DNA from: Alcaligenes sp. SORT26
GTDB lineage: Bacteria; Pseudomonadota; Gammaproteobacteria; Burkholderiales; Burkholderiaceae_B
Length of the DNA: 64,000 nucleotides
Direction: 5' to 3'
Assembly (NCBI RefSeq): GCF_017377875.1
Contig: NZ_CP070975.1
Coordinates: 2,914,001 to 2,978,000, forward strand
Shown here: positions 50,667 to 63,863 of the stretch, piece after piece
Layout of the letters: every line of letters starts with the position of its first letter
Numbering within the stretch: position 1 is the stretch's first letter
Made by a program: the position numbers and the translations under genes
The notes under the pieces: model-generated
The model's database searches: none
What the model was told of the DNA's origin: nothing
Seen by the model: only the letters and a program-made list of their open reading frames with translations

Positions 50667-51133
50667 GGTTCGGGCTCTTGGTAAGTAATAAAAACAGAAG
50701 CGTCTTGATGGTAGGCCGGGCAGGGAGAGGTAGCAAATCTTCTGTGCAAAATACCCCTTTCAGGACAATGGGTAATTCCGTTCTATGCCAGTCCAACGCC
50801 CTTCCCAGGTCCCCTCCTCTGTGCACCTATTCCCCCTGAAAACTGCTTTTGTACATTTACCTCTATTTTTGTAAAGTATTTGTGCACGTAGTTTACGACC
50901 GTCCTTATCCTGCAAGCTTCCCTGTCATCACTCCATGTGATGTCGTCAAACCCTTGTGTTTTCTAGTGTTAAATGGATATTTAGTGGAAAACCCCAAGCT
51001 AAATTTTTTCAAAAAACTAGAGGTTTAAAGTAATATCACACTGTTTTTGAGCAAATTTTGTGTACATTTAATGCACGAAGTTTACACGGAGCACTTGAAT
51101 TTACATGCAGTGCCTATAGAGGGGAGGAGTTTG
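50667..51133 (+). promoter_or_regulatory. TRAP operon promoter region with operator-like repeats
   Basis: 467 bases without a credible gene. A 26-base imperfect dyad at 50871-50896 starts GTAAAGTATTTGTGCAC and ends in TAGTTTAC. A related element at 51060-51087 shares TGCACGAAGTTTAC with TGCACGTAGTTTAC of the first, only one base different. A further TGTGCAC lies at 50820-50826. GTAAAGT-N2-TTGTGCAC recurs at 59411-59427 before the XRE-cupin gene. These look like binding sites of one regulator. GGGGAGGAG precedes the first TRAP gene. Confidence 0.55.
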
Positions 51134-51616
51134 ATGCAGACCCGTTTCTTGCGTCATGTTTGCAGTTTTATGTTCGGGCTGGCCGCACTGGCCATCCTGG
51201 CGCTGATGATGGTGGCTTTTGCCGACGTCATGATGCGCAGCTTTGTTCGACCATTGTCTGGCGCATTTGAATTAACCGAGGTGCTGGTCGGGGTCATGGT
51301 CTTTGCCGCCCTGCCCTTTGTCACCTTGAGCGGCAAGCACGTCAAGGTGTCCTTGTTGCGTTCTTTGGTGGGGCAAAAGCCACTGGTGCAAGGCTTGTTG
51401 CGCTGGTGTAGCCGCGTGGCGACAGGTGTGTTGATGGCCTTTCTGGCGTACCACCTGTGGGCTCTGGGTGTTCAGTTTGCGCAGACCAATTCCCGCGCTG
51501 TATTTGCAGATCTGCCATTGGCGCCGTTTGCGTACTTTGCGGCGGTGATGTGCGCCTTATCCACGCTGGCCGCACTGTTCAGTGCAGACGGTGACGAGCT
51601 CGCTGAGGAAAAATAA
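51134..51616 (+). CDS. TRAP transporter small permease (DctQ type)
   Basis: 160 residues from the ATG at 51134, which has GGGGAGGAG upstream; the frame is open further left without a site. It has four membrane helices and the DctQ-type segment MMVAFADVMMRSFVRPLSGAFELTEVLVGVMVF. With the large permease it forms the membrane part of a sodium-driven solute importer. The large-permease gene starts at its last base. Confidence 0.92.
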   Translation: MQTRFLRHVCSFMFGLAALAILALMMVAFADVMMRSFVRPLSGAFELTEVLVGVMVFAALPFVTLSGKHVKVSLLRSLVGQKPLVQGLLRWCSRVATGVLMAFLAYHLWALGVQFAQTNSRAVFADLPLAPFAYFAAVMCALSTLAALFSADGDELAEEK

Positions 51617-52905
51617 TGACTGTCGTTGTCACTGGCATGATCATCCTGATCGTGCTCATGGTCCTGGAAGTACCCATCGCGGTGGCGATGGCTTTGGTAG
51701 GTATTGGCGGCTTTGCCTATGTGGTCGATTGGGGCCCGGCAGCCTATATGGCAGCGGAAACTTCGTATCGCCTGGTTCATAACTACAACCTGTCTGTTAT
51801 CCCCTTGTTCATTCTGATGGGCAATCTGGTGACGCGGGCGGATGTCTCTAAAGATCTGTTTGATCTGGCCTATCGCTTTGTGGGCCATCGTCGCGGTGGT
51901 CTGGCGATTGCAACGGTGCTGTCGGGCGGGATGTTCTCGGCCGTGTGTGGTTCCAGTTTCGCCACAACGGCGACGATGGCCCGGGTCGCTTACCCCTCCA
52001 TGAAGCGTTACGGCTACGCCGATTCGCTGGCGGGTGGTGCGATTGCCTCGGCAGGGACCTTGGGCGCCATGATTCCGCCCAGCGTGCCCTTGATTGTCTA
52101 TGGTGTGCTGACCAGCAATGACATCGGCAAGCTGTTTATCGCCGCGGTGTTGCCCGGTATTTTGGGCATGGTGCTGTACATAGGCGCGGTCATGGTGGCC
52201 ACTCGCATGACACCCGGTCTGGCCGGTGCGGGCGAGCGCAGCTCCTGGATGGAACGACTCCGTGGCCTGAAGAGTGTCGGCTCGGTCTTGCTGCTGTTTC
52301 TGCTGGTAATTGGCGGGATTTACGGCAACTTGTTCACGCCTACCGAAGCGGCCGGTATCGGTGCAGTGGGTGCCCTGCTCATCATGATCTGGCGTCGCAA
52401 GTTCTCCTGGCAGAGCTTGATGGCTGCCTTGCGTGAAACCGCCATGACCAGTGCCGCCATCTTCGTGATTATGGTGGGCGCACAAATCTTCACCACCTTT
52501 GTGAACGTGGCTGGTTTTACCGCCCTGTTGTCTGATGCGGTGCAGCAATGGGACTTGCCGGGTTGGGGCATTTTGCTGGGCATCGTGGTGCTGTATCTGG
52601 TCTTGGGTTGCATGCTGGAAGGCATGTCCATGCTCCTGCTGACTCTGCCCATTGTTTACCCGTTGATTATCAACCTGGGCCTGGACCCGATCTGGTTCGG
52701 CATTCTGGTGGTGACCCTGATCGAAGTGGGCCTGATTACACCGCCCTTGGGGATGAACGTGTTTGTGCTCAATTCCGTGGTGCCATCCATGTCGCTCAGC
52801 ACGATTTACCGGGGCGTTATCTATTTTGTATTGGCTGATCTGCTGCGCCTGGCGCTCCTGATTGGCATACCTGGCATTGCTTTGTTTCTGCCCTCATTGA
52901 TGTAA
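51616..52905 (+). CDS. TRAP transporter large permease (DctM type)
   Basis: 429 residues, about 12 hydrophobic helices, with DctM signatures NLSVIPLFILMGNLVTRADVSKDLFDLAYRFVGHRRGGLAIATVLSGGMFSAVCGSS and AGTLGAMIPPSVPLIVYGVL, and GLITPPLGMNVFVLNSV near the end. It forms the transport channel and the sodium coupling site. It overlaps the DctQ-type gene by one base and is followed 40 bases later by the binding-protein gene. Confidence 0.95.
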   Translation: MTVVVTGMIILIVLMVLEVPIAVAMALVGIGGFAYVVDWGPAAYMAAETSYRLVHNYNLSVIPLFILMGNLVTRADVSKDLFDLAYRFVGHRRGGLAIATVLSGGMFSAVCGSSFATTATMARVAYPSMKRYGYADSLAGGAIASAGTLGAMIPPSVPLIVYGVLTSNDIGKLFIAAVLPGILGMVLYIGAVMVATRMTPGLAGAGERSSWMERLRGLKSVGSVLLLFLLVIGGIYGNLFTPTEAAGIGAVGALLIMIWRRKFSWQSLMAALRETAMTSAAIFVIMVGAQIFTTFVNVAGFTALLSDAVQQWDLPGWGILLGIVVLYLVLGCMLEGMSMLLLTLPIVYPLIINLGLDPIWFGILVVTLIEVGLITPPLGMNVFVLNSVVPSMSLSTIYRGVIYFVLADLLRLALLIGIPGIALFLPSLM

Positions 52906-52945
52906 GCCATTTTTTATTGAATCTGATTTTCTCGAAGGAATATGC

Positions 52946-53980
52946 ATGATTAAGCAAGTTAGCAAATGGGTGGGGGTAGCTGCAGTCGCCCTGGCAGCCA
53001 GCACCAGCGTACAGGCACAGAACATTACGCTGCGTTTTTCCAACTGGTTGCCTCCTACCCACCCTATGGTTACCGAGATGCTCAACCCTTGGGCCAAGGA
53101 TGTGGAGAAGGCAACAGAAGGCCGAGTGAAAATTCAGGTGTTGCCGCCCTTGGGCACCCCTGCCTCGCACTACGATCTGGTACGTAATGGTGTGGCGGAC
53201 ATGACGATTGGCGTGCACTCCTACACACCCGAGCGCTTCAAGCTGACGGAAATGGTGGAACTGCCCATGACTGCCGAGAACGCTCAGGTGAATTCGCTGG
53301 CGTACTGGCGCACGTACCAGAAGTACTTCATGGGCAAGAACGAGCACGCAGGCACCAAGCTTCTGGGCGCGTGGGTGCCCGGTTCGTATCAGTTGTGGAC
53401 GGCCGCCAAGGTAGACAGTCTGGACAAGCTGGACGGCACCAAGATCCGTATTCCCGGTGTGCTGGTGGAACGTATTGCCAAGCTGCTGGGGCTGGTGTCG
53501 ATCTCTTCGACCCTGACCGAAGCCTACGACCAGATCTCGCGCGGCATTATTGATGGCATGTTCCAGAACTACACCACGGTCATCGACTTCAATTTGTCCC
53601 GCTTCATGCCGAATCTGTTCCTCTTGCCCGGTGGTTTCTCGGCCTCCAGCCAATTCATGGTGGTGAACGAGCGTAGCTGGCAGCGTATCAGCGAGGCTGA
53701 CCGTGCCGCGATTGATGCCTTGTCGGGCGAAGCGATGGTCAAGCGTTTTTCCGGCATCTGGCAAAAGAACAATGTGGCTGCGTTTGATCGCCTGACTGCC
53801 GAGGGCATTAAAGTCCATCGCATTGAAGGCGAACAGTTGGAAGCCATGAAGACCAAGCTGGCGGTGATTGAGCAGCAATGGTTAAGCGAAGCCAAGGGTG
53901 TCGAGGCCCAGGAAGCGCTGAATTTCTACCGCGCCGAGCTGGATCGCGTGGCGGCTGAGCTGGGTGTTTCCAAGGACTAA
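52946..53980 (+). CDS. TRAP transporter substrate-binding protein (DctP type)
   Basis: 344 residues with a signal peptide ending at residue 24 (SVQA). The DctP family is shown by ITLRFSNWLPPTHPMVTEMLNPWAKDVEKATEGRVKIQVLPP and by the conserved Arg in KIRIPG, which binds the substrate carboxylate. The ligand is therefore probably a carboxylate. It is the last transporter gene and is followed by a hydrolase gene. Confidence 0.95.
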   Translation: MIKQVSKWVGVAAVALAASTSVQAQNITLRFSNWLPPTHPMVTEMLNPWAKDVEKATEGRVKIQVLPPLGTPASHYDLVRNGVADMTIGVHSYTPERFKLTEMVELPMTAENAQVNSLAYWRTYQKYFMGKNEHAGTKLLGAWVPGSYQLWTAAKVDSLDKLDGTKIRIPGVLVERIAKLLGLVSISSTLTEAYDQISRGIIDGMFQNYTTVIDFNLSRFMPNLFLLPGGFSASSQFMVVNERSWQRISEADRAAIDALSGEAMVKRFSGIWQKNNVAAFDRLTAEGIKVHRIEGEQLEAMKTKLAVIEQQWLSEAKGVEAQEALNFYRAELDRVAAELGVSKD

Positions 53981-53987
53981 GCCCCTC

Positions 53988-54818
53988 ATGTCACAGCATC
54001 TGGAAAGTGAATACAACGCCAGTTGGCATGTGCCCGACCATAAGGAGATTGTTGCCTCGTGGTCGGGGCTGGCCGAGCAGTTTCGGGCCGGTTCGTGCCA
54101 TGAAGCCAATCAGCCCTATGGCCCGGAAACGCGCAATGTCATGGACATTCACTTTCCGGCTGTGGAGCGCCCGGATGCGGCGGTGCTGATGTTCATTCAC
54201 GGCGGTTACTGGCAGTCCATGGATCAGCGTCGTTTCAGCCATCTGGCACAAGGCAGTGTGGATAACGGTCTGATTACGGTGTTGCCAACGTATACCCTGT
54301 GCCCACAGGCCAGTGTGGCGCAGATTATTGACGAGCTGCGCATGGCTTGCGCGGTGATCTGGCGAAGGTTCCAGCGACCTATTGTGGTGGCTGGGCATTC
54401 AGCCGGGGGCCACCTGGCTGCGTGTTTGCTGGCAACAGATTGGCCTGCTTTTGCCCCTGATTTGCCCCACGATATATTGCGTGCAGGTCTGGGCTTGTCG
54501 GGGCTCTACGATCTGGAGCCGCTGACACATATCGGTATCAATGATGCCTTGCAGTTGAATGCCGAAACCGCACGTGCTTGCAGCCCCTTGTTCTGGCCCG
54601 CGCCCATTGCTGGGCAGTCTTTTGAGGCTTGGGTGGGTGGGGATGAAACGTCGGAGTTTCATCGTCAAAGTCAGGAGCTGGCCCAGTCCTGGTCTGGCCA
54701 GGGTTTGGAGGTGGTTTACCGGGCCTTGCCGGGGACCAATCATTACAACGTGATCGCGGCTTTGGCCGATAAGGAGTCTGTCGTGTCAGAGCGTTTGCTA
54801 GCACTGGCGACAAACTGA
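53988..54818 (+). CDS. Alpha/beta hydrolase, kynurenine formamidase-like
   Basis: 276 residues from the ATG at 53988, seven bases after the binding-protein stop. The oxyanion motif HGGYW (71-75) and nucleophile elbow GHSAGGH (Ser138), with a C-terminal His in GTNHYNVI, are those of the arylformamidase/esterase group. No other tryptophan catabolic gene is present, so kynurenine formamidase activity is not assumed. Position in the TRAP operon suggests it hydrolyses the imported compound. A strong terminator follows. Confidence 0.85.
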   Translation: MSQHLESEYNASWHVPDHKEIVASWSGLAEQFRAGSCHEANQPYGPETRNVMDIHFPAVERPDAAVLMFIHGGYWQSMDQRRFSHLAQGSVDNGLITVLPTYTLCPQASVAQIIDELRMACAVIWRRFQRPIVVAGHSAGGHLAACLLATDWPAFAPDLPHDILRAGLGLSGLYDLEPLTHIGINDALQLNAETARACSPLFWPAPIAGQSFEAWVGGDETSEFHRQSQELAQSWSGQGLEVVYRALPGTNHYNVIAALADKESVVSERLLALATN

Positions 54819-54853
54819 GTTATCTCTGTCTTTGAGTAGACAAACCACTTTTT

Positions 54854-54877
54854 CCGGGCCTTTGGCCCGGTTTTTTT
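54854..54877 (+). terminator. TRAP operon terminator
   Basis: CCGGGCC (54854-54860) and GGCCCGG (54864-54870) form a perfect stem with a TTT loop, followed by seven T, about 35 bases past the hydrolase stop. Confidence 0.95.
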
Positions 54878-54989
54878 GTGCTCGCTTGATTCCCTTTAAC
54901 TTTGTTCATTGTTAAGTATTCGTCTTTAAACGAAAATGAAAGAGCAAGACCGTAGCAGGTTGTATTTGACTGGCAAGAGAGAAAAGATC

Positions 54990-55280
54990 ATGAAAAGCAG
55001 ATCACATGATGAGGCGATGGCCGAGTTGTATCGCGGTGATCCGGCCTTGGCATTAGAGACCATTAATCAGATTCTGGAGGACGGGGATCAAGCGGAGCTG
55101 CTGATCGTACTACGCCAATTAGCACAGGCTTTTGGCGGGGTGCAGGCGGTTGCCGAGCAGGCGCAGTTAAATCCGACGCAGCTCTACAGGACGCTATCTC
55201 CCAAGGGGAATCCGGCGTTGAGCAGTTTGACGGCCATTTTGAAGGCAATGGGTCTGCGTCTGGCGGTACAGCCTTTGTAG
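54990..55280 (+). CDS. Putative addiction-module antidote protein (orphan, HigA-like)
   Basis: 96 residues from the ATG at 54990; an in-frame start at 54936 adds 18 residues without benefit. The protein resembles the small XRE-type antitoxins that partner RelE/HigB-like toxins: ALETINQILEDGDQAELLIVLRQLAQAFGGVQAVAEQAQLNPTQLYRTLSPKGNPALSSLTAILKAMGLRLAVQP, with an HTH at about 50-85. The toxin gene normally directly precedes it; only about 170 non-coding bases separate it from the TRAP hydrolase, so no toxin is encoded beside it. Confidence 0.8.
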   Translation: MKSRSHDEAMAELYRGDPALALETINQILEDGDQAELLIVLRQLAQAFGGVQAVAEQAQLNPTQLYRTLSPKGNPALSSLTAILKAMGLRLAVQPL

Positions 55281-55347
55281 TCATCCAGATGACCGTGGTT
55301 TAGCATGGCACTTCTAGCCTACGGGCTTACTTTATTTGAACGCATCC

Positions 55348-55803
55348 ATGACTGAAAATACCCCCGATACATGCCCTGTTTACAAGGCAGCCTGTCATTG
55401 TGGAACCGTGCGTTTTACGGTAAAGCTGACTGATGGCCTGCGTTCGGCGCGCCGTTGCAATTGCTCGTATTGCCGTATGCGTGGCGCTGTGGCGGTCTCG
55501 GCTGATCTGGCTGATATTCAGGTTGAGCATGGCCAGGATGCGTTGGCGCTTTATCAATTCAACACCGGGCAGGCCAAGCATTATTTCTGTTCGCGCTGCG
55601 GTATCTACACTTTCCATCAACGTCGCTCCAAGCCGGAGCAGTATGGCGTGAATGTGGCCTGCATTGAGGGCATGAGCCCCTTCGACTTCGCGGAGGTGCC
55701 GGTTAATGAAGGTGGCAGTCATCCCAAGGATCGTCCCGGTGGTGCCAGCCTGATCGCCGGTTGGTTGCGTTATCAGGCCAATCCTGAGATGCAGGACGAC
55801 TGA
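55348..55803 (+). CDS. GFA family (Cys-rich, zinc-binding) protein
   Basis: 151 residues from the ATG at 55348. The zinc cysteines of the glutathione-dependent formaldehyde-activating (GFA/DUF636) family are present: ACHCGTVRF, CNCSYCRMRG and YFCSRCGIYTFHQ. The family binds zinc and is named for a formaldehyde-activating relative; most members have no proven substrate. It appears to be a single gene. Its stop is close to the convergent porin terminator. Confidence 0.9.
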   Translation: MTENTPDTCPVYKAACHCGTVRFTVKLTDGLRSARRCNCSYCRMRGAVAVSADLADIQVEHGQDALALYQFNTGQAKHYFCSRCGIYTFHQRRSKPEQYGVNVACIEGMSPFDFAEVPVNEGGSHPKDRPGGASLIAGWLRYQANPEMQDD

Positions 55804-55835
55804 TCGTTCTTGTGTCCCCGTGTGGATGCCACCCG

Positions 55836-55872
55836 TAAAAAAACGCCCCTTACGACAAGTGTAGAGGGGCGT
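55836..55872 (-). terminator. Porin terminator
   Basis: ACGCCCCT (55843-55850) pairs with AGGGGCGT (55865-55872) around a 14-base loop. The run of A on the left gives a U tract in the leftward transcript. It lies about 110 bases past the porin stop. Confidence 0.72.
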
Positions 55873-55928
55873 ATAAAAAGAGATAACGCGGAACAGAATC
55901 GCGCATCTACGGAAAAACAATGCAGGCT

Positions 55929-55949
55929 GTCACGGGGATTCCCCGTGAC
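55929..55949. repeat. GC-rich dyad downstream of the porin gene
   Basis: GTCACGGGG (55929-55937) and CCCCGTGAC (55941-55949) form a perfect nine-bp inverted repeat with a three-base spacer. It lies between the porin stop and its terminator and may stabilise the mRNA 3' end. Confidence 0.5.
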
Positions 55950-55982
55950 TTCAAGCGACGCCCCCGCAGGGGCAGACTTTGC

Positions 55983-57167
55983 TTAGAACTTGTGGTTAAA
56001 GGCTACGTACAACTGTGTGGCGCGCGCGTCTGGCAGGAAGGTCAGGTTCTGTGCATAACCGCCGTACACGTACACCATGGTGCGCTTGGACAGGTCGTAT
56101 TGATAACCCACCGAGTACACGTGCTGACGCTTGGTTTGCGCATTGGGACCGGTAATGCTTTCGGGCAGGGAGCGTGGATCAGCCATGTTCCAGCCCAGCG
56201 AGAAGCGGCCTCCGGCCAATGGGGTGGTTACCCCAAAGGAGTAGGAGTTGATGCGCAGACCCGGTACGGCGGCAAAGGACGGCAGTGGGTTGGTGACGTT
56301 GCTCAGGCCAAAGACCTGGGTGGCAAACAGACCATCACGAGTCTGACCGATACCGGCAAACACTTTGACGACTTCAAAGTCATAGCTGGCGGCACCCGCC
56401 CAGGCGCTGACGCGAGTGGAGTCGGCGGCAGGACGTGCACCGCTGGCAGACTGCTTGCTGATGTGCAATTGGTCGTAAACCAGGGCTGCACTCAAGGGGC
56501 CGTTGTTGTAGCGCAAGCCCGTGGTGACGGCGCGGATATTGCTGTCCTTGGTGTTGGTGCCGTCAGGGCGTTCGCTATCCCACTGCTGTTTGCCGTTGAT
56601 ATTGAAGGAATAGCCAATACCAAACTGGAAACCGTTCAGTGTGGGGGACTGGTACTGGATCTGGTTGTCGTAGCGCACTGTGTTGGCCACGCTAAAGGTC
56701 GAACCAAAGCCTACAATCCCGCCGCCGCCGCCCAAGGGGTGCGCCATGCTGAAGTATTCGGTAGGCATATTGTTCTTCAGACCGAAGTCGATCTGGCCCC
56801 AATCATCGCCTGCCAAGCCCAGTGTGGCCTGACGTCCAAACAGACGGCCGCCTTGAATGGATTGACCAGTGGGTACGTCAAAGCCACTTTCCAGCACAAA
56901 CTTGGCATGCAGGCCGTTGCCCAGATCTTCGGAGCCACGGATACCCCAGCGGCTACCAAAGTGCACACCGCTATTGGGTCCCAGACGCGAGGTCTTGAAC
57001 TCGGTGGCATCGGTTCGGTCACGGCTGTAGCTGCTATTGCCTTTGTTCATGTCGTAGCCAACGCCGGTGTCCAGAATCCCGTACAGGGTGACGGATGCGT
57101 GGGCGGCCGAGCTGGCCATCAGCAAAAACAGGGCCGTGCTGACAGCGGTTTTATTTCTTGTTTTCAA
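55983..57167 (-). CDS. Outer-membrane porin, Bordetella/Comamonas (gram-negative porin) type
   Basis: 394 residues from the TTG at 57167, with AGGAG eight bases upstream. From this start the signal peptide runs to about residue 23 (SAAHA), followed by the porin hallmark SVTLYGILDTGVGY. The frame is open further upstream but that part lacks signal-peptide character. It is a 16-strand trimeric porin ending in Phe (YVAFNHKF). The C-terminal Phe, GLRYNNGPLSAALVYDQLH and the general layout fit betaproteobacterial porins. It is transcribed leftward, upstream of and on the same strand as nothing else; it may serve the adjacent catabolic locus. Confidence 0.93.
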   Translation of the reverse strand: MKTRNKTAVSTALFLLMASSAAHASVTLYGILDTGVGYDMNKGNSSYSRDRTDATEFKTSRLGPNSGVHFGSRWGIRGSEDLGNGLHAKFVLESGFDVPTGQSIQGGRLFGRQATLGLAGDDWGQIDFGLKNNMPTEYFSMAHPLGGGGGIVGFGSTFSVANTVRYDNQIQYQSPTLNGFQFGIGYSFNINGKQQWDSERPDGTNTKDSNIRAVTTGLRYNNGPLSAALVYDQLHISKQSASGARPAADSTRVSAWAGAASYDFEVVKVFAGIGQTRDGLFATQVFGLSNVTNPLPSFAAVPGLRINSYSFGVTTPLAGGRFSLGWNMADPRSLPESITGPNAQTKRQHVYSVGYQYDLSKRTMVYVYGGYAQNLTFLPDARATQLYVAFNHKF

Positions 57168-57336
57168 TTCCTCTTCTCCTTCGTGGTAGATAAAAAAAGC
57201 GTGCAGCAATCCCCCTACCGCCGGTGATGCAGTAAGAAACGGGCGCAACAAAGCAGGCAGGGCGATAAAGCCTGCGTGGTGTGTGCCAGCGAAGGGGGTA
57301 AGGGGGCGAGTGCCAGGGGCACCCGCAATAGGGGTC

Positions 57337-58260
57337 TTAGATCAGTTCAAGATCGACCAGGGTTTGGCGTATCAGTTCTATCTCGCTGTCCTCGACCTCC
57401 AGAATGGGGCGGCGTACGTAGGGCTGCACGGGTACGCCGCGCATCTTGAATGCAACTTTCAGCACCGAGGGTGAAGAGCCGTAGCGGCCGATCAGCTCGG
57501 GGGTGTACCAACGCTGCAAAATTTGTATGTCTTTCTGGCCGCAGGCGCGGGCAGCGTCTATATCGCCGCGCCAGATGTGGTTGTAGAAGTCCGGCTGATA
57601 GCGGCCCAGCACGCCACCGGCACCAATCGTGCCGTCGCCATCCACACTTTGCAGCAGGGACAGGCCGTGCTCATCCATACGGAAGCCGTACACACGTACT
57701 TTGTCTTTCAGGCGGAACAGTGTCTTGATGAACTGTTCAATGCTTGGGCTGGATTGCTTGATGCCGACGACACCATCGATATCCGTCAACTGTTCCAGCA
57801 AATCTACAGACAGGTCGATCCCGGTCCCGGCAGGCCAGTTGTAAATGACGATAGGCAGGGTGATTTCTTTGGCGATCTGCTGGTAAAAGGCCAGAATTTC
57901 CTTGTCGTTGGGGCGTACATACGGGGGCGGTGCAATCACGACCCCTTCATAACCCAGTGCCTGGGCCTGCTGAGCAAGGGCGACAACTTCAGCGGGCGTG
58001 TAGCCGGTACAACCTGCCAACAACGGTAGCTTGCCGCGCATGGCATCGGCACTGGCGCGGAACAGGTCGACCCGCTCCTGGTTGGACAGGCTGGTCCATT
58101 CGCTAGTGGTGCCGCCTACAAACAAACCGTGCATGCCCTCGGCATGTAGCCATTCCAGCATGCTGTGCAATGCCGGTACATCCAACTGTCGTGCTTGATC
58201 AAAAGGAGTGATGGTGGTCGGGATATAGCCCTTCCAGTTCACCCTGTGTTTCTTACTCAT
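57337..58260 (-). CDS. Dihydrodipicolinate synthase (DapA/NAL) family lyase or deaminase
   Basis: 307 residues from the ATG at 58260; a GTG nine bases upstream is possible. A TIM-barrel class I aldolase-like enzyme: Schiff-base lysine K168 in GVVGIKQSS and tyrosine Y140 in VIYNWPAG. The phosphate-like loop reads GGTTSEW in place of GTTGE, as in catabolic members. Relatives include keto-acid aldolases and the pyrroline-4-hydroxy-2-carboxylate deaminase of hydroxyproline degradation. A nearby HcnABC-type amino-acid oxidase makes a deaminase role attractive, but the hydroxyproline epimerase is missing. It lies 39 bases after the VOC-RidA gene on the same strand. Confidence 0.85.
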   Translation of the reverse strand: MSKKHRVNWKGYIPTTITPFDQARQLDVPALHSMLEWLHAEGMHGLFVGGTTSEWTSLSNQERVDLFRASADAMRGKLPLLAGCTGYTPAEVVALAQQAQALGYEGVVIAPPPYVRPNDKEILAFYQQIAKEITLPIVIYNWPAGTGIDLSVDLLEQLTDIDGVVGIKQSSPSIEQFIKTLFRLKDKVRVYGFRMDEHGLSLLQSVDGDGTIGAGGVLGRYQPDFYNHIWRGDIDAARACGQKDIQILQRWYTPELIGRYGSSPSVLKVAFKMRGVPVQPYVRRPILEVEDSEIELIRQTLVDLELI

Positions 58261-58299
58261 GTGTGTCACTTGTATGGATTAAAGAAAGGGGGCTGTGGT

Positions 58300-59214
58300 T
58301 CAAGGCAGACGCGCTGTGGCTTCGATCTCGACCAGCATGTCTGGCAAGGCCAGATTGGCGACCCCCAGCAAGGTGTTGGCAGCCGGTTCGGCGCCTTCAT
58401 AGAACTCGTTGATCAGTGCGCAGATCGGACCCAATTCTTCAGGCGTGTGGCCGACCAGATAGGTGCGCAAACGCACGACATCGCGTGGGCTGGCACCGGC
58501 CTCTTTCAGAACGGTTTTCAGGTTCTGCAAAGCCTGACGGGTTTGTGCGATGCGATCGCCTGCGCCCACTAACTGCCCTTCACCATTCCAGGCGACTTGC
58601 CCGGCCAGATGCACGGTGTGGCTGTTGTCCTGCACGACAGCGTGCGAGAAGCCAAAGTTGGTGCTGTTGTAGAGCGACGCCGGATTTACGCATTCACGGC
58701 CCTGGGGGGCGTTCAAGGCTTGGCTGCGTTGAACCAGCTCGAAAATATTGCCCCAGGGGTCAGTGAAGTACTGGAATTGGGCGCCAGCGGTCGGGCCGGA
58801 ATCAAAAGCGATACGGTCCAATACTGTGCAGCCATGCTGTTCAAGCTGTGCAACAGCCTGATCCAGATCGGCCACCAGGAAACCCAGGTGGTGTGCACCC
58901 ACATGGTTGGATTTCAAGGCGCGTTGGGTGTCGCTGGCAGGCTGGTCGTAGGCAAACAGTTCAATGTGAAAGCCGTTGGGCAGCACCATGAAGGCCAGTT
59001 CCAGCTTGGCATCAGGCACATCCAGGTGCGCATGGGTCCAGTCTTTGCCTTGGGCGGAGCGGGGCAGATCCGCGCTATTGATAGGCCCTAGACGGTAGAG
59101 CTGGCGCGCTCCGAACAGGCGCTCATAAAAGGCGATGGCGGCATCCAGGTCCGGTACTGTCCAGGCGGCGTGATCAATTTGTTCAATAGCCAATGGCAAA
59201 ACAGGCGATGTCAT
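58300..59214 (-). CDS. VOC-RidA fusion protein
   Basis: 304 residues from the ATG at 59214 (CGGAG upstream). The N-terminal half (about 8-150) is a VOC/glyoxalase domain: IEQIDHAAWTVPDLDAAIAFYERLFGA, then HHLGFLVADLDQAVAQL and DPWGNIFELVQRS with the metal Glu. The C-terminal half (about 165-304) is a RidA/YjgF domain: HTVHLAGQVAWNGEG, VVRLRTYLVGHTPE with the conserved Arg, and ALPDMLVEIEATARL. RidA proteins hydrolyse reactive enamines and imines. A fusion of the two is unusual. It is divergent from the XRE-cupin/oxidase operon and co-directional with the lyase gene. Confidence 0.88.
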   Translation of the reverse strand: MTSPVLPLAIEQIDHAAWTVPDLDAAIAFYERLFGARQLYRLGPINSADLPRSAQGKDWTHAHLDVPDAKLELAFMVLPNGFHIELFAYDQPASDTQRALKSNHVGAHHLGFLVADLDQAVAQLEQHGCTVLDRIAFDSGPTAGAQFQYFTDPWGNIFELVQRSQALNAPQGRECVNPASLYNSTNFGFSHAVVQDNSHTVHLAGQVAWNGEGQLVGAGDRIAQTRQALQNLKTVLKEAGASPRDVVRLRTYLVGHTPEELGPICALINEFYEGAEPAANTLLGVANLALPDMLVEIEATARLP

Positions 59215-59574
59215 GGAGTCTCCGTTTATGCCCTTGCAGGGGCTGTATACAAGATTGTGCAATAATACTGCACATAATTTACGGATCAATAATACTTTAG
59301 GCCTGTAGTTTTTTGTTGAAAAACCAGACTACGTATTTTCCCTAGGTAAATTATTGTTTATAAACAATAGCTTGTGATTTGTATTTACGGAGTGGATATC
59401 GATGCGGCGTGTAAAGTGCTTGTGCACACGTGTAAAGTCTGGAAAAATTCAGCACTGAAACTGCACGGTTTGTGCAGTTTCAGAACATGCATTTGCACAC
59501 CATTAGGCTGCCTCTCTTACCCTATAATTCGTGAAGTTCGGCTACACATAACTACACGAACATAGGACTTCAGA
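59215..59574. promoter_or_regulatory. Divergent control region with multiple TGTGCA-type elements
   Basis: 360 bases with no credible gene. Elements seen: a direct repeat of CGTGTAAAGT at 59408-59417 and 59429-59438, 21 bases apart, around a TGTGCACA centre; a perfect inverted repeat TGAAACTGCAC (59456-59466) and GTGCAGTTTCA (59472-59482); a TTGTGCA/TGCACATAA dyad near 59255-59278; and TATAAT at 59523-59528, a -10 candidate for the XRE gene. The first element shares GTAAAGT-N2-TTGTGCAC with the TRAP promoter region at 50871. It must drive genes in both directions. Confidence 0.6.
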
Positions 59575-60111
59575 ATGATAGGCAAACGACTTCATGAGCT
59601 GCGCGTAGCTAAGGGCCTGTCCCTGCGTGAATTGGGGCAAATGGTCAAGCTCTCGCCCACGCTGCTCAGCCAGGTAGAACGCGGTGTCACCACACCCAGT
59701 TTGACGACCCTGCGCAAGCTCAGCGGGATCTTTGGGGAATCCATGTCTTCCTTGTTCATGGACTCCAGCAAAGGTCCCTCTGTGTGGATCAGCCGCCCGG
59801 GCGAGCGCATGTTGTTGCGCGGCCCACGTGGCGGTGTCGTCTATGAGAGGCTGACGCGTGGCAATGGCGAGATGGAAGTGTTCCGGGCTGTTTACGAAGT
59901 GGGTCAACAGTCCATGGACGATATGTCGCACCCGTCCCTGGAGAGCGTGTACGTAGTCCGGGGTGTCATTACTGCAGAGATTGATAAGGTAAGTTTTGAC
60001 GTCAAAGCTGGCGAAAACATCAGCTTTGATGCACGCCAAAGCCACCGTTACCTGAACCGGGGGACGGAGGAGGCTGAAATCATCATGTCGATTACCCCGC
60101 CTGTCCCCTAA
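59575..60111 (+). CDS. XRE family regulator with C-terminal cupin domain
   Basis: 178 residues. The HTH is at about 3-58 (LHELRVAKGLSLRELGQMVKLSPTLLSQVERGVTTPSLTTLRKLSGIFG) and the cupin at about 105-175 (SLESVYVVRGVITAEIDKVSFDVKAGENISFDARQSHRYLN). AGGA precedes the start. It is the first gene of the oxidase operon and is the obvious reader of the surrounding TGTGCA-type elements, which also occur before the TRAP operon. Similar proteins sense amino acids or amines. Confidence 0.92.
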   Translation: MIGKRLHELRVAKGLSLRELGQMVKLSPTLLSQVERGVTTPSLTTLRKLSGIFGESMSSLFMDSSKGPSVWISRPGERMLLRGPRGGVVYERLTRGNGEMEVFRAVYEVGQQSMDDMSHPSLESVYVVRGVITAEIDKVSFDVKAGENISFDARQSHRYLNRGTEEAEIIMSITPPVP

Positions 60112-60154: not shown

Positions 60155-61384
60155 ATGAGCCCCAACCCAGATCCTCTTCTTCCCCCTTTCGCTTGCCCCT
60201 CTGGCACCCTGCCCGCCCGGACCGATGTCCTGATTGTTGGCGGTGGGCTGCTGGGCTGTGCCGCCGCGTATTACTTGAGCCTGGCGGGCGTGTCCGTCAC
60301 CCTGGTCGAACAAGGCGAGTTAAGCCTGCAAGCCTCCAGCCAGAACGCGGGCAGCCTGCATTTCCAGATGGAATACCGCATGATCGAGGCGGGACTGGAA
60401 GCCAGCACACGTGCCTTGCAAGCCATGCCCTTGCATGTGGATGCCATTGCCCGCTGGCGCGCTCTGGAAGATCAACTGGGAATGTCGGTAGGGGTACGCC
60501 AGAAAGGCGGCTTCATGCTGGCGGAAACGGCACAGCAAGCCCAGGTTCTGGAACAGAAAAGCCGCCTGGAGAATCAGGCTGGCCTGACGGTCGAGCTACT
60601 GGACCGCTCCGCCTTGCAAGCGAAAGCGCCCTATTTGTCAGATTCCGTATTGATGGCGGCATTTTGTGCTGATGAAGGTAAGGCCGACCCGCGTCGCGCC
60701 AGCCTGGCCTTGGCTGCTGCCGCCCGTGCGCGGGGTGCCCGCATTGTCAGTCAATGCCCCGTGGTGGATTTGAAGCGTGTGGGCTCGGACTGGCAGGCGG
60801 AGGTCGCAGGTGGTGCTCAATGTCGTAGCGCACAAGTGCTGATTGCTGCTGGTGTCTGGTCTGGACGCATCGCCCAAATGACAGGTGCACAACTGCCTGT
60901 CAGCCCTATTGCCTTGACCATGACCGCCACGGCGCGCACAGCGCCCTTCATGGACTATCTGTTCCAGCATGTCGGTCGGCGGCTGTCCTTGAAACAAACG
61001 GCTGAAGGGACGGTCTTGATTGGTGGCGGCTGGCCCTCGAAATTGCATCATCACAAGGGCATTGCGGATCTGGAACGCAAGCCCAGCATCTGCCTGGAAT
61101 CACTTCAGCGCAGCGTCCAAACCGCTTATAGCGTGGTGCCCAAACTGGCTACCCTTCCCGTGCTGCGCACCTGGACGGGGGTGACGGCCCTGGTTGCGGA
61201 CCAATTGCCTTTGCTGGGCCAGGTGCCGCATCGGCCCGGCTTGTTCATTGCCACTGGCGGCGCCGCTTTTACCTTGGGTTTGACCTACGCCCATCTGTTG
61301 GTGGCCCAGATGCTGGGCCAAGCGACCAGCCTGGATATTTCGGCTTACGACCCTGACCGTTTTAGGAGTTTGACCTTTGCCTGA
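60155..61384 (+). CDS. FAD-dependent oxidoreductase, HcnC/DadA-like subunit
   Basis: 409 residues from the ATG at 60155; a GTG at 60128 would add nine residues. The FAD site is VLIVGGGLLGCAAAYYLSLAG (GGGLLG at 29-34). The DAO fold is supported by ASSQNAGSLHFQ and the C-terminal LPVLRTWTGVTALVADQLPLLGQVP...TGGAAFTLG. It is the catalytic beta subunit of a three-part amino-acid/imino-acid or opine oxidase like HcnABC and the D-hydroxyproline dehydrogenases. The next two genes encode the ferredoxin-like and NAD/FAD subunits, overlapping in turn. Confidence 0.88.
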   Translation: MSPNPDPLLPPFACPSGTLPARTDVLIVGGGLLGCAAAYYLSLAGVSVTLVEQGELSLQASSQNAGSLHFQMEYRMIEAGLEASTRALQAMPLHVDAIARWRALEDQLGMSVGVRQKGGFMLAETAQQAQVLEQKSRLENQAGLTVELLDRSALQAKAPYLSDSVLMAAFCADEGKADPRRASLALAAAARARGARIVSQCPVVDLKRVGSDWQAEVAGGAQCRSAQVLIAAGVWSGRIAQMTGAQLPVSPIALTMTATARTAPFMDYLFQHVGRRLSLKQTAEGTVLIGGGWPSKLHHHKGIADLERKPSICLESLQRSVQTAYSVVPKLATLPVLRTWTGVTALVADQLPLLGQVPHRPGLFIATGGAAFTLGLTYAHLLVAQMLGQATSLDISAYDPDRFRSLTFA

Positions 61385-61667
61385 TGCACAACGCTTGCTG
61401 CAAAAACGGCAGCGCTTCGAGCCTGCTGTGGTGATTATCAATGGTCAGGAGACCCCCTGCTATGCGGGTGAAACCGTGGCGACCGTCTTGCTGGCGGCCG
61501 GGGTGGGCGCCTTTCGTCGCACCGCCGGTGGCGCACCGCGCCGCCCGGTCTGCAATATGGGTGTGTGCTTTGACTGCATTGTGACGATTGATGGCATGCA
61601 GGGATTGCGTAGCTGCATGACGACGGTGCGTAGTGGCATGCAGATCGAGGTGGCTGACCATGTCTGA
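61377..61667 (+). CDS. (2Fe-2S) ferredoxin-like subunit, HcnA type
   Basis: 96 residues from a TTG with AGGAG upstream, overlapping the FAD subunit gene by eight bases. The 2Fe-2S ligands are C59, C64, C67 and C80 (VCNMGVCFDC then SC). It carries electrons between the two flavin subunits of the oxidase. Such small subunits occur in HcnABC, opine oxidases and hydroxyproline dehydrogenases. The next gene overlaps it by eight bases. Confidence 0.9.
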   Translation: MPDAQRLLQKRQRFEPAVVIINGQETPCYAGETVATVLLAAGVGAFRRTAGGAPRRPVCNMGVCFDCIVTIDGMQGLRSCMTTVRSGMQIEVADHV

Positions 61668-63093
61668 TGTTCTGGATTTGCTGATTGTCGGGGCAGGCCC
61701 GGCCGGATTGTCGGCGGCCCGTATCGCCAGTGAGCAGGGCTTGACCGTGGCCGTGGTGGACGAGCAGCCCCGTTTTGGCGGACAGGTGTTCCGGCAGGCT
61801 CCCGAGGAGTTTGCGGCAGCGGACCCGGATTCCATGCACACCTATCCCTTCTCGCAGGGGCTGTTTCAGTGGGCGCGTCGCACTAGCGCCGTGCAGTGGC
61901 ACTTCAGCACCCTGGTCTGGGGGATTTTTGACGATACGCAGGACGAGCACCAGCGTCAGGTTGGGATAGCCGGTCCGAATGGTGCCAGCTTGTTGAAGGC
62001 TCGCCGGGTCCTGATTGCGGCAGGCGCCTATGATTTACCCGTGGCCTTTCCGGGCTGGACCTTGCCGGGCGTGCTGAGCGCCGGTGGGGTGCAAACCATG
62101 ATCAAGAGCCAAAGCCTGATGCCGGGCCAGCGTTTCCTGCTGGTGGGCGGCCATCCCTTGCTGCTTTTGGTCGCTGAATTATTGCTTGATGCGGGTGCAC
62201 AGATTGCTGAAGTGGCCATCGCCCGCAGCTTGCCCTCCATGAAGGAAATGCTGCGGGCAACCCAGGCATTGCCAGGGCAATCCAGGCTTGTTAAACAACT
62301 GCTCGCCATTTTGCTGAAACTGCGCCGTCACGGTGTGCCTTTGCGCTTTGGGGCAGGCCTTGAGTGCGTGCACGGCGAGGAGTCCGTGCAGGCAGCAACC
62401 TTGTGCAAGCTGGATCAGAACTGGAAGGCCATTCCCGAGACGCAACGGCGTGTGGAAGTGGATACGGTGGTGGTGGGGTATGGCTTGCTGGCCAGCACCG
62501 AGCTGGCGCGTCAGGCAGGCTGTGCCGTGCAGTGGGACAGCGCCGCCGGGGGCTGGTTGGTCAAGCACGATGACAGACTGCACAGTTCTCAGCCCGGTGT
62601 GATGGTGGCTGGGGAGCAGACCGGGATTGCGGGCGCATTCAATGCCCATCTACAAGGCGAGCTGGCCGCTTGGCAGTGCGTGCTGGAGCTGACTGAACAG
62701 GCTTGTGAACCTATCGAGCAAACCCTGTCGGGTTTGATGGCACGTTTGAAGCGCAACCGCCGGTTTACGGATACGGTCATCGCGCTGTCTGCTCCCAAGC
62801 TGGACGCGCTGGCCCAACGCATTACGCCGGAGACGGTGGTGTGTCGCTGCGAAGAAGTGACGGCTCAGGAAGTGAACCAGTTTCTGGATGCGCATCCTTA
62901 CGTGACGGATATCAACAGCATCAAACTGGCGTGCCGTACAGGCATGGGAATGTGCCAGGGACGCTATTGTCAGCACACGGTGGCGCAAATGCTGGCTAGC
63001 CGCTTGGGCTGTGGGGTGGATCAGGTGGGTATTTATAAAGCCCAGGCACCGGTCAAGCCTGTGCCGGTGATTGCCTTGGCGAATATGGAGTGA
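61660..63093 (+). CDS. NAD/FAD oxidoreductase subunit with C-terminal 2Fe-2S domain, HcnB/opine oxidase type
   Basis: 477 residues from the ATG at 61660. The N-terminal dinucleotide site is LLIVGAGPAGLSAARIA, and a second GG motif lies in RFLLVGGHPLLLLVAELLL. The C-terminal domain has CRCEEV and CRTGMGMCQGRYC, the four-cysteine iron-sulfur pattern of BFD-like domains. It is the alpha subunit of the three-part oxidase. Cyanide synthesis from glycine (hcnABC) is one member activity but is not assumed. A terminator follows. Confidence 0.9.
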   Translation: MSDVLDLLIVGAGPAGLSAARIASEQGLTVAVVDEQPRFGGQVFRQAPEEFAAADPDSMHTYPFSQGLFQWARRTSAVQWHFSTLVWGIFDDTQDEHQRQVGIAGPNGASLLKARRVLIAAGAYDLPVAFPGWTLPGVLSAGGVQTMIKSQSLMPGQRFLLVGGHPLLLLVAELLLDAGAQIAEVAIARSLPSMKEMLRATQALPGQSRLVKQLLAILLKLRRHGVPLRFGAGLECVHGEESVQAATLCKLDQNWKAIPETQRRVEVDTVVVGYGLLASTELARQAGCAVQWDSAAGGWLVKHDDRLHSSQPGVMVAGEQTGIAGAFNAHLQGELAAWQCVLELTEQACEPIEQTLSGLMARLKRNRRFTDTVIALSAPKLDALAQRITPETVVCRCEEVTAQEVNQFLDAHPYVTDINSIKLACRTGMGMCQGRYCQHTVAQMLASRLGCGVDQVGIYKAQAPVKPVPVIALANME

Positions 63094-63188: not shown

Positions 63189-63863
63189 CTATAAGGGCTG
63201 TTCCAGGATCTCCTGCAATCGGCTTAGCAATTTGTCGCTGGCATTGTTCATGTGCCGCTCACATATGGCAACGGCCCCGGCTTGGTCACCAGAGGCAATG
63301 GCGGCGGCCAGTTCTTCATGCTCGTCCCAGATGGACATGCGCTGTTCGGCCGATTGCAATACTGCGCCCATCACGCGTCGCAGGTGAACCCAGTGTACCT
63401 GGGCGCTTTCGGCAATCATGGGATTGCCGGATGCTTCATAGATGGCTTTGTGAAAAGCTTCATCAGCCTCGATCATGGCGCGGACATCGTGTCCACGCGC
63501 CACTTTTCTACCCATTCGGATCAGATCCGGGTCCAGCGTGGCGCTTTGCTGGGCAGCCAACTTGGTCGCCAGGGCTTCCAGTGCACCGCGTACTTGGTAC
63601 AGATGGCCGATGTGTTCCAGATCCAAGGGGGCTACCATGACGCCCCGCCCTTCAGCGTCTTGTAATAGACCGTCTTTCTTCAATAACTGAATGGCCTGTA
63701 GCACGGGTGAGCGTGACACCTTGAGTTGTTCCGCGATGTCTTCTTGAGTAATCCGTGAACCGGGGGCCAGGGAACCGTCGCTGATGGCATCGAGCAGGAT
63801 GCGGTAGACCTCGTCCACATAATGGGGACGGGCCTGCAACTTACCGGAAAGCTTGGCATGCAT
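63189..63863 (-). CDS. GntR family regulator, FCD (FadR) subfamily
   Basis: 224 residues. The winged HTH is at about 14-80 (VYRILLDAISDGSLAPGSRITQEDIAEQLKVSRSPVLQAIQLLKKDGLL). The FCD ligand domain (about 90-215) has metal-type His/Asp residues (DLEHIGHLYQVRGALEALATKLA, EADEAFHKAIYEASGNPMIAE). FCD regulators sense acids. It is convergent with the oxidase operon and may regulate it, or the partial gene upstream on its strand. Confidence 0.92.
   Translation of the reverse strand: MHAKLSGKLQARPHYVDEVYRILLDAISDGSLAPGSRITQEDIAEQLKVSRSPVLQAIQLLKKDGLLQDAEGRGVMVAPLDLEHIGHLYQVRGALEALATKLAAQQSATLDPDLIRMGRKVARGHDVRAMIEADEAFHKAIYEASGNPMIAESAQVHWVHLRRVMGAVLQSAEQRMSIWDEHEELAAAIASGDQAGAVAICERHMNNASDKLLSRLQEILEQPL

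Follow-up and report, generated by a model that had tools for sequence, protein, structure and literature searches.

In Pseudomonas aeruginosa, the XRE-cupin regulators described in PMC7901475 bind beside their own genes, act as repressors, mostly have one or two targets and, where their motifs have been determined, recognise palindromes. DbuR is likewise an XRE-cupin repressor and controls an operon that encodes a D-amino acid oxidase, a Rid2 protein and a transporter (PMC12724383). This report concerns a pair of neighbouring loci in Alcaligenes sp. SORT26, contained in a window of 64 kb (the whole stretch of DNA analysed, to which all positions refer) from a genome of 4,083,727 bp, here termed G000. 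The first locus encodes a tripartite ATP-independent periplasmic (TRAP) importer and an alpha/beta hydrolase; the second, 8 kb away, encodes an XRE-cupin regulator and a three-subunit flavin dehydrogenase, with divergent genes for a fusion of vicinal oxygen chelate (VOC) and Rid domains, a protein of the dihydrodipicolinate synthase (DHDPS) family and a porin. Based on shared sites that are unique in the genome and conserved with the locus, and on a recurring enzyme cluster, all of them read from sequence, the two loci probably form one small local regulon, in which the XRE-cupin repressor would control its own dehydrogenase operon, the divergent VOC-Rid, DHDPS and porin genes, and the TRAP-hydrolase operon.

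The original prediction of such a link was built on the pattern GTAAAGT-N2-TTGTGCAC, with copies at 50871-50887 before the TRAP operon and 59411-59427 before the XRE-cupin gene. Both copies are present on the plus strand at exactly these coordinates, with 0 mismatches. A whole-genome motif scan, set beforehand as the refutation test, returned only these two exact matches in G000, and hence the pattern is not common; a reversed-pattern control gave 0. Looser matching is uninformative, as the genome contains 5 matches with up to 2 mismatches versus 5 for the control (none with exactly 1 mismatch), and the 4 window matches with up to 3 mismatches are equalled in 8 of 100 shuffles and are therefore not significant. 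Among 200 genomes of the family there are 9 exact matches, all within five Alcaligenes genomes (2, 2, 2, 2 and 1), and when the promoters of these genomes are aligned the matches lie in those of the TRAP operon and the XRE-cupin gene; when single-mismatch matches are included, the family total is 37 versus approximately 36 for the control (counted from the scan table), so that only the exact matches carry information. The recurrence of TGTGCA- and TTTAC-related elements in both regions was also borne out. The two intergenic regions, 827 bp in all, hold 13 TGCAC/GTGCA words versus 2.5 expected from the window rate (GTGCAC being counted twice) and 10 TTTAC/GTAAA words versus 1.3, enrichments of approximately 5-fold and 7-fold, respectively. 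The second copy of the pattern is its weak point, as genome G007, one of the four relatives, carries GCATGAGGTGCTTGTGCGCAC in its place and has lost the left half, and its invariance is equalled or exceeded by 252 of 333 windows of the same length in the XRE intergenic region.

Better supported as the common element is the 28-bp pattern TTGTR-N6-WW-N-TGCAC-N4-TTTAC, recognised after an alignment of the intergenic regions of the five Alcaligenes genomes that have both loci, the window's own included. Its sites begin at 50869 and 51058 in the TRAP region (A1 and A2) and at 59255 in the XRE region (B1). In the 4.08 Mb genome, it has no match with 1 mismatch, 7 with 2 mismatches and 3 exact matches, the last by construction because the consensus was built from these three sites. 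The site at 59255 was tested separately from the consensus, using as query the 20 positions common to the two TRAP sites; it is the best match in the XRE region, at 17 of 20, a score reached in 2 of 4000 dinucleotide shuffles, and nothing else in the 64 kb scores above 14. A 19-bp dyad, TGTRNA-N7-TGCACR, is matched exactly at four places in the window, none of them outside the two intergenic regions; with one mismatch allowed, there are 11 matches versus 5.6 expected. The core of B1, TGTGCAATAATACTGCACA, is a near-palindrome, and a weak minus-strand sigma-70-like match overlaps the site (a scan of the XRE region gave 2 such matches versus 1.1 per shuffle). Beside the XRE-cupin gene, the dyad at 59256-59274 and a palindrome at 59455-59483 (B3) are putative operators. 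The claim of a shared operator thus holds in so far as a genome-unique, operator-like element is common to the two loci, but its second named site is the least conserved.

Conservation follows the locus. All 12 sites in the other four Alcaligenes genomes that have the locus match the 28-bp element exactly, whereas the five Alcaligenes genomes without the locus have 0 exact matches, and the control has 0 in all ten genomes of the genus. Elsewhere, G001, G004, G005 and G006 each have a single-mismatch match, whereas the control again gives none in ten genomes. Across the five genomes, 62 % of the columns of the TRAP intergenic region are invariant; A1 and A2 each have 27 of 28 invariant columns, a level matched by 27 of 440 windows. 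In the XRE intergenic region, 83 % of columns are invariant, and the corresponding values are 27 of 28 for B1 (92 of 333 windows as good), 22 of 28 for B2, the site around the second copy (252 of 333), and 28 of 29 for B3. Orthologues of VOC-Rid (94-98 % identity), DctP (97-98 %) and the beta subunit (90-93 %) occur in the same five of the ten genomes of the genus, the window's included; the XRE-cupin protein is 99.4 % identical in the four other loci, and a porin orthologue is present in each of these four. In G007, the stretch between the TRAP and oxidase loci differs in its genes, and yet both loci are kept together. That stretch (L080:7206-10632) encodes a TctC-type binding protein, an AMP-binding enzyme and a LuxR-type regulator, in contrast to the antidote and GFA genes of the others.

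An XRE-cupin gene does lie beside the second region, as had been noted, and its product combines an N-terminal HTH_3/XRE domain with a C-terminal cupin domain. It scores 56.9 bits against the NCBIfam PuuR model, under the cut-off of 211, and PADLOC returned HTH-type matches only. In the proposed mechanism, this protein would bind dyad operators in the intergenic region next to its own gene and, 8 kb away, in the promoter of the TRAP operon. Three units would be repressed in this way: its own gene together with the beta-gamma-alpha dehydrogenase genes; the divergent genes for VOC-Rid, the DHDPS-family protein and the porin; and the import operon of dctQMP and the hydrolase gene. The substrate, or a product of it, would then free the operators on binding to the cupin domain, and one amino- or imino-acid-like carboxylate would at the same time begin to be imported, hydrolysed and oxidised. 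Binding by the XRE-cupin protein, repression, the operon boundaries, the inducer, the substrate and the order of the reactions are all proposals of this scheme. Since both gene groups carry the same rare switch sequence, import and oxidation are probably switched on together. The prediction of one regulon accordingly keeps its shared element, its adjacent XRE-cupin gene and its grouped enzymes; the role of the XRE protein as binder is presumed, and the imine chemistry that went with it is weakened, as discussed below.

The grouping of the enzymes is evident well beyond Alcaligenes. At E 1e-30, relatives of the DHDPS protein were found in 14 plasmid records, and in the best 10 of these (four Novosphingobium, four Bradyrhizobium and two Embleya) a relative of the beta subunit adjoins the DHDPS gene, the DHDPS proteins being 36-56 % identical to the window's. 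The genes for DHDPS and for the beta, gamma and alpha subunits are consecutive in all seven loci of this kind that were read (L132, L133, L134, L136, L137, L138 and L139). Unfused VOC and Rid genes follow or adjoin the cluster in the four Novosphingobium/G909 loci, and Bradyrhizobium has a VOC gene (46 % identity) approximately 11 kb away. Both Embleya loci have an XRE-cupin gene (40 % identity) ahead of the DHDPS gene, and among the 41 plasmid records in which the XRE-cupin protein has a match, these two rank best. The two loci (L133 and L138) also have a common palindrome, GTTCAAnCACAnTGAAC, read by eye approximately 70 bp upstream of the XRE-cupin gene, which is a candidate operator for this distant homologue. 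The grouping of a DHDPS protein with the three-subunit flavoenzyme, joined in several cases by VOC and Rid, therefore recurs in other genera and in another phylum. Given this recurrence in Novosphingobium, Bradyrhizobium and Embleya, the enzymes probably belong to one pathway; on sequence grounds, they and, to a lesser degree, the regulator are a unit found in two phyla.

Other searches show how far the cluster extends. Relatives of the beta subunit occur on plasmids in 40 records, 15 of which (H1, H5-H10, H12-H14 and H16-H20), among the 20 listed, were looked at. DHDPS genes with 29-35 % identity to the window's are also present within 6 kb of related dehydrogenases in Variovorax, Rhizobium, Roseicitreum and Paracoccus; as these dehydrogenases are more distant relatives, the pairing in itself is of earlier origin and broader spread. 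A tree of 22 beta subunits places the window's clade with Bradyrhizobium and Embleya with weak support (92/88 and 80/71), not resolved from the Agrobacterium rows. When 399 genomes of the order were scanned with the XRE-cupin protein at E 1e-35, a match was found in the window's own genome only; for the beta subunit at E 1e-75, the 398 genomes scanned in the phylum gave two, G909 and the window's own. A VOC-Rid scan of genome contigs gave eight loci, only two of them close, both in Alcaligenes. No description of the enzyme cluster was found among the matches listed from open-licence PubMed Central titles and abstract openings.

The original prediction made VOC-Rid an imine hydrolase and had the oxidase produce an imine for it. 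Its Rid domain (58300-58704), the nearest solved relative of which is 5v4f (E 6e-49), reads PAANTLLG where YabJ has PARSCVEV, and so lacks the catalytic Arg (Arg105 of TdcF); PAxN(T/S) occupies the same place in four compared relatives and in 5v4f_A. Proteins of the Rid4-Rid7 subfamilies, which are without this residue, appear not to hydrolyse imines, and their role is unknown (PMC4433059). Assignment of imine hydrolysis to this protein is therefore doubtful, and the chemistry of oxidation to an imine followed by hydrolysis is weakened.

One alternative for the substrate, possible though on balance doubtful, is an amino acid that is aromatic or derived from tryptophan, which the pathway would oxidise. 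DctP has as its best solved match 4p56, which we take to be a mandelate-binding protein, and the hydrolase of the TRAP operon matches the kynurenine formamidase 4e11. A relative of the Rid domain (59 % identity) in G082 (L084) stands beside genes for tryptophan dioxygenase, a PF04199 cyclase and kynureninase, and another PF04199 cyclase gene, with genes for a TPP/POR-type oxidoreductase, lies near the Novosphingobium cluster L136. The kynurenine-formamidase-type hydrolase and the Rid relative in G082 are thus weak pointers to an aromatic amino-acid-like carboxylate. All of these pointers, however, are by association; the closest Rid relative found, at 65 %, is in the cluster of G909, outside the kynurenine clusters, and the neighbours of the cluster vary by lineage, with a family 5 solute-binding protein and an amidohydrolase in Embleya (L133) and a DUF885 protein and an amidohydrolase in G909. 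In L136 (Novosphingobium humi), a GH3 glycosidase gene and, by reading, a TonB-receptor-like gene are also near the cluster, and together with the cyclase and the TPP/POR-type subunits these neighbours hint that the substrate is of plant origin and perhaps aromatic or glycosylated.

A number of observations weigh against a single regulon under the XRE-cupin protein. The exactness of the three 28-bp matches was built in, and allowing up to 3 mismatches raises the genome count to 40, versus 30 for the control. Conservation of B1 is weak evidence because the five locus-bearing genomes are close relatives and the whole XRE region is 83 % invariant. The two loci, being neighbours, could be co-inherited without co-regulation. 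A promoter scan of the TRAP region gave no sigma-70-like match. The half-sites of B1 and of the palindrome B3 are oppositely oriented, and two different proteins could therefore be involved; a GntR gene (63189-63863) is also nearby. Outside Alcaligenes, neither operator pattern is exact in L132-L139 (Embleya, Novosphingobium, Bradyrhizobium and G909), and in L134, L136 and L139 (Novosphingobium/G909) a LysR gene adjoins the cluster and there is no XRE match. Of 150 loci scanned, 30 contain a match to the operator patterns, all of them Alcaligenes copies of the TRAP or XRE intergenic regions, the loci of the other four groups showing four isolated 7-mer matches only. Regulation, unlike the enzymes, is therefore lineage-specific.

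Two of the alternatives concern the element itself. In the first, which we consider rather unlikely, the shared element would be bound by another regulator, either the GntR protein or an unlinked factor, and the XRE-cupin protein would bind only the palindrome at 59455-59483. GntR genes often control TRAP operons, and the arms of B3 are longer and perfect, with a half-site order that differs from that of B1. However, the element is matched exactly at only three places in the genome, never beside the GntR gene, this gene adjoins another catabolic cluster, and TGCAC/GTGCA is common to B3 and B1. In favour of the alternative, data on DbuR suggest that another regulator acts in the dbu system, which is comparable (PMC12724383). 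In the second alternative, which is less probable still, the similar sequences would be remnants of an old promoter duplication, or a product of base composition, inherited neutrally and with no shared binder. The loci are indeed neighbours, the relatives are close, the consensus is partly post hoc, and looser matches are at or near the control level; but exact matches are unique in 4.08 Mb, the shuffle test gave 2 in 4000, and A1 has 27 of 28 invariant columns inside an intergenic region that is 62 % invariant overall.

Least probable of all, and rejected as an overall interpretation, is that the cluster is a hydroxyproline pathway, with a D-hydroxyproline dehydrogenase and a DHDPS-like deaminase, for although a three-subunit dehydrogenase with a DHDPS-family protein is the hydroxyproline arrangement, the genome has 0 members of PF05544 (proline racemase/hydroxyproline epimerase) above cut-off (one at 24.5 bits versus 27), the DHDPS protein is distant, with 28 % identity over 164 amino acids to that of S. 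meliloti, the gene of which lies in what is presumably the hydroxyproline cluster (the record is unannotated), and VOC-Rid and the alpha/beta hydrolase are, to our knowledge, no part of that pathway. In its favour, PMC4575208 relates the three dehydrogenase subunits to D-hydroxyproline dehydrogenase (D-HypDH). Opine catabolism is also unsupported, the nearest beta subunits on the two compared Agrobacterium plasmids being distant; no opine synthase-like gene was noticed in the locus, for which no profile search was made.

The features of the two loci are collected in Table 1.

Table 1. Putative regulatory sites and genes of the TRAP and oxidase loci, by position in the 64 kb window
Feature	Position	Strand	Remarks
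Operator-like site A1, TTGTAAAGTATTTGTGCACGTAGTTTAC	50869..50896	+	Upstream of TRAP operon; holds first copy of the originally predicted pattern; exact genome match
Operator-like site A2, TTGTGTACATTTAATGCACGAAGTTTAC	51058..51085	+	Ends 48 bp 5' of dctQ start codon
TRAP small permease DctQ	51134..51616	+	PF04290
TRAP large permease DctM	51616..52905	+	TIGR00786 and PF06808 above cut-off
TRAP solute-binding protein DctP	52946..53980	+	PF03480; nearest solved relative 4p56 (phmmer 4.7e-59)
Alpha/beta hydrolase	53988..54818	+	Last gene of TRAP operon; PF07859 and PF20434; related to 2pbl and kynurenine formamidase 4e11
Terminator-like hairpin, CCGGGCC-TTT-GGCCCGG and T run	54854..54877	+	3' of TRAP-hydrolase operon; read by eye, unscored
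Outer-membrane porin	55983..57167	-	PF13609, 170.5 bits; start codon approximate; downstream of DHDPS gene, same strand
DHDPS/NAL-family lyase or deaminase	57337..58260	-	PF00701, 171.5 bits
VOC-Rid fusion	58300..59214	-	PF00903 and PF01042
Operator-like site B1, TTGTGCAATAATACTGCACATAATTTAC	59255..59282	+	40 bp upstream of VOC-Rid start codon
Site B2	59409..59436	+	Around second copy of the pattern (59411-59427); 19-bp dyad TGTAAA-N7-TGCACA in G000; left half lost in G007
Site B3, palindrome CTGAAACTGCAC-GGTTT-GTGCAGTTTCAG	59455..59483	+	12-bp arms fully complementary; between B2 and XRE-cupin gene
XRE-cupin regulator, presumed repressor	59575..60111	+	PF01381 (residues 6-58) and PF07883 (residues 105-171), both above cut-off
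Dehydrogenase beta subunit	60155..61384	+	FAD, D-amino acid oxidase (DAO) fold; HcnC/OdhB-like; PF01266
Dehydrogenase gamma subunit	61377..61667	+	[2Fe-2S]; HcnA/OdhC-like; PF13510; TTG start
Dehydrogenase alpha subunit	61660..63093	+	HcnB/OdhA-like; Pyr_redox_2 (PF07992), BFD-like [2Fe-2S] (PF04324), SO_alpha_A3
GntR gene	63189-63863		PF00392 and FCD

The TRAP transporter set is complete, with DctP, DctQ and DctM each matching its family. In the DHDPS protein, YNWP and GIKQ align with YNMP and GFKD of 4xky, the Tyr and the Lys being, we assume, the active-site residues, and the VOC part of the fusion has, by eye, a His/Glu/His/Glu set that presumably serves as metal ligands. The dehydrogenase genes are in tandem and overlap, in the order beta-gamma-alpha, and fit the heteromeric flavin dehydrogenase group (OpnDH, D-HypDH and HCN synthase). 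Of the motifs given for that group in PMC4575208, namely GxGxxG, Cys-X4-Cys-X2-Cys-X11-12-Cys in gamma and Arg-X-Trp in beta, GGGLLG, GAGPAG, CNMGVCFDC-X12-C and RTW were found by eye; the alpha subunit has CRC and CQGRYC (by eye), with a spacing wider than the Cys-X-Cys-X15-20-Cys-X4-Cys of the same source. Between the two loci, 54987-55280 encodes an addiction-module antidote-like protein (TIGR02684, 46.7 bits versus a cut-off of 53.7), and no partner toxin gene was recognised beside it in the list of open reading frames, no dedicated search having been made. A second catabolic cluster (L003:932-10955, genome 2977932-2987955) extends past the end of the window and contains, by reading, TRAP-type permeases and a solute-binding protein, as well as a Rieske-domain oxygenase, a ferredoxin reductase-like protein, LysR, a class II aldolase family protein and GntR. 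It also has a ketol-acid reductoisomerase-like protein above the NCBIfam cut-off, an ilvC-like gene being odd in such a place.

Returning to the regulon under the XRE-cupin repressor, its value is that generic annotations (TRAP, oxidoreductase, DapA-like, VOC and Rid) become one testable unit with a named regulator, operator sites and an enzyme core, and it suggests a local XRE-cupin regulator that reaches a separate import operon. A wider reading, which we put forward tentatively and with less confidence than the regulon itself, is that DHDPS, the three-subunit dehydrogenase, VOC and a Rid without the catalytic Arg may constitute an undescribed catabolic pathway across Pseudomonadota and Actinomycetota, with the Rid and VOC proteins (fused in Alcaligenes) performing a chemistry other than imine hydrolysis, and that in Alcaligenes the XRE-cupin repressor may have taken over the TRAP importer by way of operator copies in its promoter. 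Rid proteins without the catalytic Arg, whose role is unknown (PMC4433059), would gain an entry point here because such a domain has a pathway context.

Compared with known systems, the locus is nearest in different respects to different ones. With hydroxyproline catabolism (hyp/lhp) it shares a three-subunit dehydrogenase and a DHDPS-family protein, but the window's genome is without an epimerase above cut-off and its DHDPS protein is distant. With OdhBCA and D-hydroxyproline dehydrogenase it shares the beta-gamma-alpha order with overlaps, a DAO-fold beta subunit and a [2Fe-2S] gamma subunit (PMC4575208); however, the nearest Agrobacterium beta subunits, from the two plasmid loci compared, are 32-34 % identical, and the window adds DHDPS, VOC and Rid genes. 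In the dbu system of Pseudomonas putida, an XRE-cupin gene likewise adjoins those of a flavin amino acid oxidase, a Rid protein and a transporter, and the operator is palindromic, but its oxidase is encoded by one gene, its ABC transporter belongs to the same three-gene operon, the operon is without DHDPS, VOC and porin genes, and no distant TRAP operon is described in the portion of PMC12724383 covered here. The Rid protein of dbu, moreover, is of the Rid2 subfamily, in which the catalytic Arg is kept (PMC4433059). Finally, the local XRE-cupin repressors of P. aeruginosa provide the regulatory counterpart, as these mostly have one or two targets beside their own gene, palindromic motifs where such have been determined, and metabolic genes under their control (PMC7901475). 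Unlike them, the Alcaligenes protein has as one presumed target an operon for import that lies 8 kb away and carries its own pair of sites, and by this analogy the regulon is likely of the local XRE-cupin type known in Pseudomonas, here extended to a TRAP importer.

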